Assembly: GCF_000526795.1 (NCBI RefSeq)
Contig: NZ_JAGT01000001.1
Coordinates: 519,001 to 583,000 of the forward strand
Length of the DNA stretch: 64,000 nt
Source: Ruminococcus flavefaciens AE3010
Lineage (GTDB): Bacteria; Bacillota; Clostridia; Oscillospirales; Ruminococcaceae
Direction of reading: 5' to 3'
Shown: in pieces, positions 49,518 through 52,833 of the stretch
Numbering within the stretch: position 1 is the first letter of the stretch
Layout of the letters: each line of letters opens with the position of its first letter
Made by a program: the position numbers and the translations under genes
Notes under the pieces: model-generated
The model's input: only the letters and a program-made list of their open reading frames with translations
The model's database searches: none
What the model was told of the DNA's origin: nothing

Positions 49518-49593
49518 CTGGGTGTGGCGCAGTTGGTAGCGCGCTACCTTGGGGTGGTAGAGGCCGTGGGTTCAAGTCCCGTCACTCAGACCA
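49518..49593 (+). tRNA. tRNA-Pro (anticodon GGG), CCA encoded
   Basis: Cloverleaf read by hand: acceptor CTGGGTG / CACTCAG with one G-U pair, D arm GCGC..GCGC, anticodon stem CTACC / GGTAG with loop TTGGGGT (anticodon GGG), T arm GTGGG / CCCGT around TTCAAGT, discriminator A and encoded CCA at 49591-49593. Reads CCC and CCU codons. It is its own transcription unit between a strong promoter and a terminator. Confidence 0.96.
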
Positions 49594-49645: not shown

Positions 49646-50100
49646 TTACTTATGCCTTTTCATCGAAATACAAAAAGCTTTAGCTATTAGCCAAAACATA
49701 CCTCCTTTGTTATAATAGATGCGGTCTGCCAACCAAACTAAAACAACAAAGGAGGTATCGTCATAACAAGAGACATTATCAATATCACCCCCTCACACTT
49801 TTAAGTCAGCCGTTAAACAAAAAGCTATGAAAGGGTAAAAAAAATCCGCCTTGCCGTCATATAGTGCATAAAACCCGCACGAAGCAGGTGGGTAAACGCC
49901 CTTATGCTTCTCGCTCCCTTCGTCCGCAAGCGGGAGGTCTGCAGTCCACATACGGAGCTGAATTCCCTTGAATTATGTGTTGGATTATAAAAACTATATT
50001 TACCCGAACAAGGCAGAATATTTTCTTTTCTATATTTATTATATCATAAAGATTTCAAAAAATCAATAGCAAATCTATGTAAAATTATTAAAATTCGATG
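49646..50100. other. gene-free stretch, possible decayed mobile element
   Basis: About 455 bp with no supported gene. A 13-bp inverted repeat TACCTCCTTTGTT (49699-49711) / AACAAAGGAGGTA (49745-49757) brackets a TATAAT. The right arm is a perfect SD, but the codon at the start position is ATA (about 49764), and the frame after it (TRDIINITPSHF) hits a stop after 13 codons, then more stops. The part 49845-49970 is clearly richer in GC than its surroundings. It looks like the 5' end of a broken transposase-like gene next to a tRNA, but I cannot name the family. Confidence 0.4.
49699..49757. repeat. 13-bp inverted repeat containing an orphan SD
   Basis: Perfect arms at 49699-49711 and 49745-49757 with a 33-nt spacer. 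Could be a terminal repeat or an operator of a lost gene. Confidence 0.6.
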
Positions 50101-50108
50101 AAAATATC

Positions 50109-50399
50109 TTATTCTTCGAGAGCGTCCTGTAATCTTTCCATAAAGAATGCTGACACAGTCTCAAACTCATCATCATCGTCTATTGAAGCAAGTATTTCTT
50201 CACCGTCTTCTTCAATCGATTTCAGAATAACAAGCTCACAGTCTGAGTTTAAGAAATCCTCATCTTCAATAGCAGGCAGCATAGCAAAGTACTGTTCGCC
50301 GTCTATCTCTGCTGCATCAAAAAGTTCAAACTGTTTTTTATTGCCTTCCTCATCGATAAGCTCAAAGAGGTCAGGTGTGTATTCATTCATTTCTGACAT
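50109..50399 (-). CDS. DUF1292 acidic protein
   Basis: 96 residues, strongly acidic. FELIDEEGNKKQFELFDAAE and YFAMLPAIED are the DUF1292 (YrzB-like) pattern. Common small Firmicutes protein of unknown role; often found near ruvX/mutS2-type genes, which are not here. SD GGAG favours ATG 50399. Confidence 0.88.
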   Translation of the reverse strand: MSEMNEYTPDLFELIDEEGNKKQFELFDAAEIDGEQYFAMLPAIEDEDFLNSDCELVILKSIEEDGEEILASIDDDDEFETVSAFFMERLQDALEE

Positions 50400-50437
50400 A
50401 ATAATCTCCATTCCAGCTTACGCTATTTGATGATTTA

Positions 50438-50466
50438 ATTATACACTAAAAATATTTAAAAATCAA
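50438..50466 (-). promoter_or_regulatory. promoter of the DUF1292 gene
   Basis: Minus strand: TTGATT (50461-50466), 17 bp, TATAAT (50438-50443). Confidence 0.75.
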
Positions 50467-50575
50467 GAGGTAAATTCATTGAGCTGCTTATTGATAATAT
50501 TACCAATGAGAAGCTGCTTTACTTGTTAGATACGCCGAATTACACTAAATATTTGTGATAATTATGTGATTTCTA

Positions 50576-50604
50576 TTGACAATGCACAAGAAGTGTGGTA
50601 ATAT
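50576..50604 (+). promoter_or_regulatory. promoter of the large ncRNA
   Basis: TTGACA (50576-50581), 17 bp, TAATAT (50599-50604), extended -10 (TGG). Transcription should start near 50611. Confidence 0.83.
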
Positions 50605-50610
50605 ATAATC

Positions 50611-51242
50611 AAAGAATAGGAGAGCTCAGATGAGCGATCCAAGCTGTATTTACTTGGACTGAGGCGAAAGCCTCAATGTAAATGATAATACGCGGAAGGG
50701 AGTGTGAGTCCAATGGAAGAAAAGTTCGCACAGCTGCGTGAAGCCGGCGGGCTTGCTGAGTAATTGGATTCAGTAAAAAGGGAATATAGGCTGCGTGCTT
50801 GTTCCATTGATAATAGCTCAAAAAGGCTTTATAATTCGATTACGAGGCTGACGTATTGCTGATCTAAACGGCTTCATGTCTAATATCTTTAGATACAGAG
50901 TTATCTGAAATTTCGACAATGAGTCTTTAGATATATTGCGAAAAATCTTTCAGAAGAGGTAGAGTCCAATGAGAAAATAGGTTATTACTTTATGAAATTG
51001 CAAATATTCGACGTTGATATCGGATAAATACAACTTTATAGGTGATTCCAATGGAGTAAAACTATATCGCTTAATTACTTTTTAAAAAGGAATGATGTAC
51101 ATGAAAAAGTGGTACACATTAAATATCTGATCCGAAAGGGTGAGTCCAAAGGGTAATTCAGCAAAGTGATGAAAGTCGCTTTATATAATAAAATAAAACA
51201 GAATAATTCGAGCCCCGATATATATCGGGGCTTTTCTGTTTT
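50611..51242 (+). ncRNA. large structured non-coding RNA, about 630 nt, ROOL-like candidate
   Basis: An independent unit between a strong promoter and a strong terminator, with no normal ORF on either strand. Hairpins by eye: GAGGC-GAAA-GCCTC (50661-50674, GNRA loop) inside an ATTTAC / GTAAAT stem; AAGCC-GGCG-GGCTT (near 50750); AGATA / TATCT (near 50890); a long stem joining CTGAAATTTCG with CGAAA..TTTCAG (about 50907-50953); TGTAC / GTACA (near 51096-51115); AAAGTGA / TCGCTTT (51165-51184). The motif GTGAGTCCAATGG recurs four times and has complements TTGGACT (50654-50660) and TTGGATT (about 50764), so long-range pairing is likely. Size, ornate layout, rumen-type Firmicute host and a nearby tRNA fit ROOL (rumen-originating, ornate, large) RNAs. 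Family assignment is inference; OLE and GOLLD are less likely. Confidence 0.68.
50704..51152 (+). repeat. four copies of a GTGAGTCCAATGG-type motif in the ncRNA
   Basis: Copies at 50704-50716, about 50959-50972 (GTAGAGTCCAATGA), 51042-51054 (GTGATTCCAATGG) and 51140-51152 (GTGAGTCCAAAGG). Spacing is irregular (255, 83, 98 nt), so this is not a CRISPR. Three copies contain an ATG behind a purine-rich SD-like run. Confidence 0.8.
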
Positions 51243-51243
51243 G
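51211..51243 (+). terminator. terminator of the large ncRNA
   Basis: Stem AGCCCCGATA / TATCGGGGCT, extended outward by AAAACAGAA / TTCTGTTTT arms, then a T-rich tail. Confidence 0.92.
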
Positions 51244-51268
51244 AGCGGAAGATAAAAGCATATAAAAT

Positions 51269-51297
51269 TTGTATTTTTCTTTATGTTATCATATATT
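51269..51297 (+). promoter_or_regulatory. possible promoter of the HtrA-like gene
   Basis: TTGTAT (51269-51274), 17 bp, TATATT (51292-51297). Moderate match; a second TATAAT at 51313-51318 lacks a good -35. Confidence 0.5.
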
Positions 51298-51354
51298 TAT
51301 CACAAAAATGTTTATAATATAAAATAGTGACTTTATGTAGAAAGGACGAGCAGT

Positions 51355-52833
51355 ATGTCAGACAAGTACAATGATAGGGAACATTCCTTTTCTTCCGGCA
51401 GCTTTGACAGCAATGGAGCCGGTGATATATTTGACAGCGTCTCTTCTGAAAACAGTGAAAAATCATTTGACTACAGTGCGAACAGCACTGAATCAAAATA
51501 CGATACAAGTTCATCATATGCATTTACTTCCGAAAATTCGGAAAAACCAGCAAAAAAGAAAAAAAATACTGTTCTTAAAGGTGCAGTGGCAGTTCTTGCC
51601 GTTGCTGTTTTGGGATTCTGCGGCGTAAAGGCTTATAAATTCCTCAGAGTAACTAAAGACGAGCTCGTTGCAGAATACACAGGTATCCCTTCACGTACTG
51701 TTCCTGAAAAACCTGCGGAAGATAAGTCTGCAGATGCAGACAAAGAACCATTGCCCAGTCTTATCGAGCTCGCCTCCAGATCAGATGCAAAACCGCTGCC
51801 TGATATTGTTGATTCTATAATGCCGTCGGTTGTCGGTGTGGCTTCGACATTTGAGTATGAGCAGGAGCAGACTTTCAGCATCTGGGGCTGGAATCCTCAG
51901 CCTCAGATCCAGCGTTTCAGAACTACAGGTACCGGTTTCGTTATAACTGAGGACGGATACATTGTTACGAATTCACATGTGGTCTATGATGAAGAATACA
52001 AAGCAGGCGAGGCCATTGATGTTTCCGTGCTTTTCAGTGACGAGACCGAGCATGAAGCAAGCATAATCGCTTATGATCCCGAAACCGATATTGCAGTCCT
52101 CAAGGTAGACGAAAAAGGACTGACTCCCGCCGTTCTCGGAGACAGCGACGAGCTCAGAGTCGGCGAGCTTGTCATTGCAGTAGGTAATCCTCTTGGATTT
52201 GATCTTTTCGGAACTGTCACAAGCGGTATCGTTTCAGCTCTGAACAGAAAGATCAATATAAACGAGAAAAAGATGAACCTTATACAGACCGATGCAGCAA
52301 TAAACAGCGGTAACTCAGGAGGTCCCCTGCTCAACAGCTGCGGACAGGTCATCGGTATCAATTCTGCAAAGATCTCTTCAAGCTACAGTTCAAGTTCGGC
52401 AAGCGTTGAGGGATTATGTTTTGCTATACCTATCAAAGAAGCCAAAAGTATTATTGATGATCTTATAAACTACAAATACGTTACAGGCAGACCTCAGCTT
52501 GGTATAATCAGTACAAAGGATATTACCGAAGCAGAGTCACGTTACTGGGATATTCCTGTAGGCGTTTTTGTAATATCCATGCAGGAGGACGGTGCAGCTG
52601 ACCTTGCAGGTATCAAGATCGGCGATGTTATTATTGATATTGAAGGAGAAGCCGTTGCCACAACACAGGAGCTTAACGAGATAAAAAATAAATACAAGGC
52701 AGGAGATACTGTTAATCTCACCGTATCACGAAACGGAATGGATATAAAAATTAAGGTAACGCTTCAAGAAGCTAAAAATGTTACTGCTGAACGCAAAAAT
52801 ACAAGAAGCGATATAAAAGAAACATCAAATTAA
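51355..52833 (+). CDS. HtrA/DegP-like membrane-anchored serine protease
   Basis: Envelope quality-control protease. Residues 1-70 are a Ser/Glu-rich cytosolic tail ending in KKKK, 73-93 one membrane helix, 150-360 the trypsin-like domain with His208 (TNSHVV), Asp245 (DPETDIAVLKV) and Ser321 (GNSGGPLL), and 385-475 a PDZ domain. 492 residues. SD AAAGGA. Single gene directly after the ncRNA terminator. No CssRS-type two-component genes adjacent. Confidence 0.95.
   Translation: MSDKYNDREHSFSSGSFDSNGAGDIFDSVSSENSEKSFDYSANSTESKYDTSSSYAFTSENSEKPAKKKKNTVLKGAVAVLAVAVLGFCGVKAYKFLRVTKDELVAEYTGIPSRTVPEKPAEDKSADADKEPLPSLIELASRSDAKPLPDIVDSIMPSVVGVASTFEYEQEQTFSIWGWNPQPQIQRFRTTGTGFVITEDGYIVTNSHVVYDEEYKAGEAIDVSVLFSDETEHEASIIAYDPETDIAVLKVDEKGLTPAVLGDSDELRVGELVIAVGNPLGFDLFGTVTSGIVSALNRKININEKKMNLIQTDAAINSGNSGGPLLNSCGQVIGINSAKISSSYSSSSASVEGLCFAIPIKEAKSIIDDLINYKYVTGRPQLGIISTKDITEAESRYWDIPVGVFVISMQEDGAADLAGIKIGDVIIDIEGEAVATTQELNEIKNKYKAGDTVNLTVSRNGMDIKIKVTLQEAKNVTAERKNTRSDIKETSN

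Follow-up and report, generated by a model that had tools for sequence, protein, structure and literature searches.

The region at 50576-51238 of the window (here, the whole 64-kb stretch of DNA that was analysed) raises the question of what kind of RNA it encodes and what such an RNA could do for the cell. The preliminary description saw in it a large ornate non-coding RNA in its own transcription unit, a candidate for ROOL and, failing this, a new class. For comparison, 90 loci were collected, including the window's own; 89 of them were anchored by blastn (L089 was not) and are referred to below as the genus loci.

Transcription unit and neighbouring genes

Sequence analysis delimits a candidate transcription unit of 50576-51238 made up of a promoter, a conserved folded body and a terminator. 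The following features define it and its upstream surroundings:

49518-49593, tRNA-Pro gene, the one tRNA within the window, ending about 1 kb upstream of the unit
49839-50022, minus strand, 6S RNA gene (Rfam match), about 0.6 kb upstream of the unit and beyond the DUF1292 gene
50109-50411, DUF1292 gene, divergent to the unit (Pfam match at 50130-50351)
50576-50604, plus strand, promoter TTGACA-17-TAATAT read from the sequence, with the -35 element at 50576-50581 and an extended -10 element at 50599-50604 (TG before it)
51210-51238, plus strand, intrinsic terminator seen in sequence and alignment, with a 10-pair stem at 51210-51233

The promoter, the strong terminator and the nearby tRNA-Pro gene had all been described correctly; the 6S RNA and DUF1292 genes sit between the tRNA gene and the unit. 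The element CTATTGAC lies near the unit start in 76 of the 89 genus loci, and a promoter-like start of the same type was found in 32 of 40 loci from the wider family. The RNA strand folds better than each of 20 shuffled sequences (z -4.6), which agrees with the structured RNA proposed before. Promoter, terminator, conservation and fold thus support a large structured RNA that forms a transcription unit by itself, the transcript being presumed from these signals.

A DUF1292-related frame was found upstream in 28 of the 89 clustered loci. On the far side, the neighbour (named by eye) was AAA-ATPase-like and in the opposite direction in 46 of these loci, HtrA-like and in the same direction in 18, and asparaginyl-tRNA-synthetase-like and in the same direction in 9. 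Since the downstream gene varies in both identity and strand and the terminator ends the RNA, the unit is not a leader or attenuator of the gene that follows. A further promoter-like site (11 of 12 positions) lies on the same strand inside the RNA at 50807-50835, in a variable region, and may be due to chance. On the minus strand, a frame over ORF1 (50609-50821) is open in many loci, with a cluster of 50 loci; conservation of the RNA sequence probably accounts for it.

Fold and covariation

The structural elements of the body are as follows:

50648-50683, plus strand, 5' hairpin ATTTAC...GTAAAT around GAGG/CCTC with UUGGACU in an internal loop (alignment A1)
50740-50875, plus strand, long-range fold from RNAalifold and pair counts, with helices 50740-50746/50869-50875, 50747-50749/50852-50854, 50755-50757/50846-50848 and 50760-50769/about 50834-50843
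50781-50805, plus strand, hairpin within the long-range fold
51164-51181, plus strand, 3' hairpin AAGUGAU-GAAA-GUCGCUU with compensatory changes (alignment A3, 26 sequences: one pair is GC in 24 and AU in 2)

The long-range fold includes the last half of ORF1, and the helix 50760-50769/about 50834-50843 contains its stop codon. For the region 50735-50881, RNAalifold predicted 33 pairs from 46 sequences, 25 of them with compensatory changes. In a 32-pair version, 24 pairs changed on both sides versus 10.2 after shuffling, 95.1% of the cells were paired versus 86.6%, and the covariation score was 0.361 versus 0.198; none of 500 shuffles was as high on any of five measures, with the reservation that relatedness among the sequences is not fully accounted for and that the structure was derived from the same alignment. 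Sliding the partners by 1-3 columns lowered the pairing to 32-46%. A phylogeny-aware covariation test gave best E values of 0.07, 0.07 and 0.57 for pairing columns, with one non-pairing pair also at 0.57; 43 of the 600 top-scoring column pairs agreed with base pairing in two or more pair types, many of them aligning in helices. As these E values are modest, the structural case rests on the RNAalifold prediction and the 32-pair counts. The adjoining piece 50862-50983 (alignment A2) gave a predicted fold in which none of 12 pairs showed compensatory changes.

At the tip of the 5' hairpin the pairs q103-q114 and q105-q112 covary (alignment coordinates; window = q + 50559). The GNRA tetraloop noticed earlier does exist in this hairpin as a GAAA loop but is not conserved across 40 aligned loci. 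Likewise, the TTGGACT and AGTCCAA segments are present (TTGGACT at 50654-50660), but the long-range pairing proposed for them is not kept. The triplet after UACUUGG is ACU in 40 of the 89 loci and another triplet in 40, the word being not found in the other 9, while the GUCC partner at the first repeat is invariant in 26 rows of A1; the pairing was rejected because one side varies against an invariant partner. AGTCCAA before 50713 and 50969 and ATTCCAA before 51051 turned out to be spacers between the Shine-Dalgarno (SD) sequence and the AUG of micro-ORFs.

A conserved peptide over the UCUGAAAUUUCGACAAUGAGUCUUUAG element was also considered. The peptide MSKLNLDTGLSEISTMSL occurs in 3 of 64 listed loci, and two further loci have close variants of it; in the window's copy this frame is not open although the nucleotides are retained, and the element is therefore taken as RNA structure.

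Short reading frames in the RNA

The absence of a normal reading frame, as stated in the preliminary description, is true for ordinary genes; conserved micro-ORFs exist nevertheless. The predicted translation signals on the plus strand are:

50696-50763, ORF1, conserved, with SD AAGGGAG at 50696-50702, AUG at 50713, the 16 codons MEEKFAQLREAGGLAE and UAA at 50761-50763
50954-50980, mini-ORF ORF2, with SD AAGAGG, spacer UAGAGUCCA and AUG-AGA-AAA-UAG (M-R-K-stop, 50969-50980)
51040-51059, mini-ORF ORF3, with SD AGGUGA, spacer UUCCA and AUG-GAG-UAA (M-E-stop, 51051-51059)
51085-51130, ORF4, with SD AAAAGG, AUG at 51101, peptide MKKWYTLNI and stop UGA at 51128-51130
51134-51162, motif b, directly after the ORF4 stop, with an SD and the GUGAGUCC block as in the mini-ORFs, without an AUG

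ORF1, in which the spacer between SD and AUG contains GAGUCCA, is intact in all 89 anchored loci. Its length is 14-21 amino acids (16 in 66 loci), its start codon AUG in 82 loci and GUG in 7, and its stop UAA in 52, UGA in 34 and UAG in 3. A conserved small ORF, as in dual-function RNAs, is thus present. The dN/dS-like ratio of about 0.5 over 27 disjoint pairs points to weak purifying selection, so the ORF1 peptide may matter. A few genus loci read the conserved nucleotides of ORF1 in another frame (SVKPA versus REAGG), and between genera the ORF1 peptides appear unrelated. ORF4 has counterparts among the relatives in short basic peptides of the type MK..R..I; peptides of the form MK..R..(L/F).I recur across genera and stand in tandem repeats in L144. 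In the latter locus motif b is repeated along with the ORF4-type frames.

The mini-ORFs were counted in two ways. Among 151 repeat sites (the pattern omits sites with U after AUG, and related loci count as separate), an in-frame stop follows within 7 sense codons at 140 sites versus 42 in frame +1 and 47 in frame +2, and within 3 codons at 110 versus 21 and 15. All three stops are used (UAA 72, UGA 42, UAG 37), and the second codon is AGA at 89 sites. A spacer-independent count over the 89 genus loci gave 201 mini-ORFs on the RNA strand versus 3 on the opposite one; 50 shuffles gave a mean of 47.6 (sd 7.1, maximum 60). The combination that characterizes minigenes, an SD, a start and an in-frame stop after few codons, is therefore found above chance. 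In L043 five mini-ORFs stand in tandem at 69-70 nt, M-R-I-stop followed by four M-R-stop, so the mini-ORF unit can be amplified.

Distribution in the genus, the family and beyond

Of 125 genomes from the same genus, 100 (counting the window's own) carry the RNA by blastn, as do 66 of the 68 that are nearly complete. A covariance model of the 5' hairpin and ORF1 (R1) matched 7 of 297 family genomes, five from the own genus and two more weakly. The match L096 appeared by eye to be an ordinary gene start and is likely a false hit. L097, from another genus, was judged to be a positional homologue: it has the divergent DUF1292 gene, a promoter, an SD-GAGUCCAAUG site and an ACAACUGAAUA box preceding a terminator-like repeat.

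The DUF1292 gene, found in 122 of 128 family genomes, was used as the anchor for the 40 family loci. A looser motif occurs in 26 of them on the RNA strand versus 2 on the opposite strand (42 versus 2 sites), and a second pattern requiring G-rich SD letters gave 31 distinct sites versus 0. In the family loci an ORF1 of different sequence is followed by M-K, M-E, M-D, M-A, M-V, M-R, M-Y, M-C or bare AUG-stop units. L139 has several M-K-stop units separated by unlike stretches; in L152, M-E and M-D units stand in a row, mostly about 55 nt apart. Many of these mini-ORFs retain SD, AUG and stop although the GAGUCC spacer drifts. Since the second residue differs between lineages, it is the start-stop layout that is kept and not the peptide. 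Conservation of a protein frame in homologues, named earlier as an argument against a non-coding RNA, was accordingly found in part: short frames are kept, and what persists in most of them is the unit from start to stop, not the peptide.

The first 20 family loci (L128-L147) had largely been picked after motif matches were seen; the other 20 (L148-L167) had not and were counted apart. By the rule applied, fifteen of the latter have a promoter-like start; they carry 47 mini-ORFs on the RNA strand versus 3 on the opposite one, a count that leaves out the 5 loci without such a start; 100 shuffles of the 15 loci gave a mean of 11.3 (sd 2.9, maximum 18). The looser motif is present in 10 of these 20 loci and in none on the opposite strand. 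With half of them lacking it, a considerable share of the family has no such RNA, or none in a recognisable form. With this qualification, the sequence comparisons support the presence of the RNA across the family well.

At the level of the order, the pattern AAGG-N0-3-GAGTCCRATG was found in 46 of 247 genomes, with 12 for the reversed control (counted from the listing). Several matches in other families open M-Y, M-Y-R, M-K-K or 16-18-aa ORFs, and others are ordinary gene starts. At the DUF1292-linked place outside the family no mini-ORF excess was found (5 on the RNA strand versus 10 opposite; 29 loci, of which 27 belong to other families); an exception is family f5, where in genomes G584 and G851 the motif lies 350-420 nt from a divergent DUF1292 gene. 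The 22 loci picked by hand from other families gave 35 mini-ORFs versus 11, a biased count, as they were chosen mainly from short-ORF matches. At the class level the pattern occurs in 25 of 292 genomes versus 15 for the reversed control (counted from the listing), which is little excess, and the matches inspected outside the order were mostly ordinary gene starts. A genome-wide search for one exact pattern, an M-K-stop variant, gave only two records and was too narrow to show breadth. An order-wide occurrence of the RNA is thus only suggested.

Near the 3' end a box AAYUKAAUA recurs (e.g., in L097, L152 and L208). The 40 family loci have 19 copies of it on the RNA strand versus 4 on the opposite one, and 68 of the 89 genus loci show a related box. 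By automatic search, just 3 of the family boxes stand ahead of a terminator-like hairpin. L208, too, has ACAACTGAATA at its end, together with a terminator-like repeat.

Spacing of the start sites

A promoter-like start is present in 32 of the 40 family loci, and in these none of 46 pairs of neighbouring mini-ORF starts lies less than 48 nt apart (related loci again being treated as separate). Random placement gave 9.1 such pairs on average and never 0 in 5000 trials; without two tandem-duplicated arrays (0 of 33 pairs) the fraction with none was 0.0014. This first control was too generous, since it allowed overlaps impossible for real units. With a forced minimum of 25 nt, 5.3 of the 46 pairs are expected below 48 nt by chance, and the fraction of trials with none is 0.0003 or 0.002 for a minimum of 20 or 25 nt; with the duplicated arrays excluded (33 pairs), it rises to 0.025 or 0.054. 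In shuffled sequences 36 of 374 spacings were below 48 nt. Of the 46 observed spacings, 13 fall at 51-59 nt, several of them in the duplicated arrays. As the strict controls weaken the result, the evidence for a spacing rule is moderate. The footprint of a ribosome is roughly 30-40 nt. With starts at least 48 nt apart, each site could hold its own ribosome.

What the RNA might do

A conserved, folded, stand-alone RNA strung with ribosome landing sites suggests a new kind of RNA. Its architecture, conservation and fold covariation are documented by sequence, as is the spacing in the relatives. The best explanation, to which a probability of about 0.45 is given, is a translated RNA whose function would be ribosome occupancy, either holding or sensing ribosomes; transcription, translation and role are all deduced here. 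Standing alone and structured, an RNA of about 600 nt (more in some relatives) would be entered repeatedly by ribosomes and barely read. Each SD with its GAGUCCA spacer would place a ribosome on an AUG, with the stop following immediately or a few codons later. Because long-range helices take in the last codons and the stop of ORF1, a ribosome translating it would have to open this fold. A basic ORF of about 9-11 amino acids would be read at the 3' end. With ribosomes initiating and terminating in place, the RNA would hold ribosomes or report their free number, and the fold around ORF1 might switch with occupancy. A stricter version regards the RNA as a dedicated ribosome-holding array, in which start-stop beads take one ribosome each and store ribosomes or measure the free pool, the ORF1 fold being the read-out and translation the signal; this version can be put forward tentatively at most.

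Repeated initiation and drop-off on this RNA would be analogous to the behaviour reported for minigenes in E. coli. According to the available parts of PMC8708949, two-codon mini-ORFs are the most toxic minigenes, acting through peptidyl-tRNA drop-off, and with a strong SD ribosomes re-initiate on a minigene without leaving. In the same parts of this source, the two-codon minigene of axe-txe is reported to act only in cis and to be non-toxic when overexpressed (PMC8708949), which counts against the occupancy reading. Also counter to it, the SD and the GUGAGUCC block are retained in motif b although no AUG follows, an arrangement that simple translation does not account for. As for the GAGUCCA spacer, its recurrence goes beyond the needs of initiation, and it may bind something else. 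As motif b and the kept spacer are unexplained by occupancy, there is room for a binding partner.

Other explanations are taken here in order of how well they survive. The RNA could be polycistronic and peptide-coding, with ORF1 and ORF4 as functional micropeptides and the mini-ORFs as minor or coupling elements. Such a reading would account for the ORF1 frame kept in 89 of 89 loci at a ratio of about 0.5 and for the ORF4-type peptides that recur across genera and in tandem in L144; it sits badly with the unrelated ORF1 peptides of different genera and the few genus loci that use another frame, and AUG-stop and one-codon ORFs, the most repeated element, could hardly make a functional peptide. 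Bare AUG-stop units and the changing second residue make peptides an unlikely product of most units, and as an account of the whole RNA this explanation is considered unlikely.

GGA repeats are binding sites for CsrA. The GUGAGUCC repeats could similarly form a sponge that binds an RNA-binding protein or a partner RNA, the AUGs being incidental, and the recurrence of the block in motif b even without an AUG is what such a sponge would predict. In a pure binding site, however, the excess of in-frame stops, the replacement of AUG by GUG and the swapping of the three stops would be pointless, and drift of the spacer leaves SD, AUG and stop intact in many mini-ORFs of the family. The sponge is therefore quite unlikely.

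Ribosomes on the mini-ORFs could also protect the transcript by blocking RNases or Rho, the effector lying elsewhere in the RNA. That ribosomes shield an AU-rich leader from nuclease has indeed been proposed for the two-codon minigene of axe-txe in the portion of PMC8708949 that was available, but rows of up to seven units, as in L152, seem excessive for protection alone, and this explanation has a small chance of being correct.

Comparison with known RNA classes

The occupancy reading places the RNA beside several known systems without merging it with any. RNAIII of Staphylococcus aureus and SgrS are dual-function RNAs with one peptide ORF of normal length. The present RNA resembles them in being structured, of regulatory size and able to encode a small peptide; unlike them, it has several start-stop units whose second codon is unconserved across genera. 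The tmRNA, RNase P RNA and 6S RNA are stable housekeeping RNAs of a few hundred nucleotides, a size that the RNA shares. A disguised tmRNA or RNase P RNA was rejected, as the own genome (G000) has both elsewhere, in addition to the nearby 6S RNA.

The bar element of phage lambda is a minigene. With lambda bar, and with the axe-txe leader as presented in the available parts of PMC8708949, the mini-ORFs share an SD, an AUG, one or two codons and a stop. Known minigenes act in cis on a gene or are cloned fragments, whereas here such units make up the conserved body of an RNA that stands alone and has its own terminator. With leader peptides and uORF attenuators, as far as the accessible portions of PMC8632094 and PMC11109978 describe them, a likeness is seen in the ORF1 stop lying inside a helix that translation would open; a downstream gene of varying identity and strand and a terminator that closes the RNA set the unit apart from them. 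The word Ruminococcus is absent from the main texts of these two papers.

Against Rfam 15 (4227 families), a scan of the window at gathering level matched 6S RNA and tRNA only. With permissive settings, the stretch 50400-51360 yielded 13 rows below threshold, many of them at the terminator and none for ROOL, GOLLD, OLE or HEARO; for GOLLD, OLE, HEARO, raiA and all other Rfam 15 families a covariance-model match was not found. The RNA had no match in a phage collection of 50,697 records or in plasmids, and one exact 22-letter pattern of it was absent from viral contigs; a phage or plasmid element was rejected on these grounds. ROOL RNA forms a homo-octameric RNA nanocage. The RNA resembles ROOL, GOLLD and OLE as a large RNA with an elaborate fold and a poorly understood function (PMC12286853, in part), and unlike them it is chromosomal, beside the DUF1292 and 6S genes, and carries micro-ORFs. 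ROOL is, according to the accessible part of PMC12286853, phage- or prophage-borne and often close to tRNA islands; the 64-kb window has a single tRNA gene. The size and long-range helices of the present RNA are all that would fit ROOL or another known large ornate RNA (GOLLD, OLE, HEARO), an identity that is already contradicted by the missing Rfam, phage and plasmid matches and by the conserved ORFs, and that can practically be set aside. The fallback proposal of a new class holds, qualified by the short frames conserved in homologues. No description of such an RNA was found in Rfam 15 or in a non-exhaustive search of the open-access literature, which covered RNAs of Ruminococcus, Clostridia and Ruminococcaceae, small RNAs of F. 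prausnitzii, ROOL and GOLLD, DUF1292, minigenes, start-stop and minimal ORFs, and ribosome-sequestering mini-ORF RNAs.

Implications

RNAs regarded as non-coding deserve a check for ORFs only one to a few codons long, a length that standard gene finding skips. If the occupancy reading is true, a family of Clostridia would carry, at a fixed chromosomal place and in many genera, an RNA conserved for initiation and near-immediate termination. Genomes would then make natural use of minigenes, and the RNA would offer a directly testable system for the storing or counting of ribosomes in bacteria.
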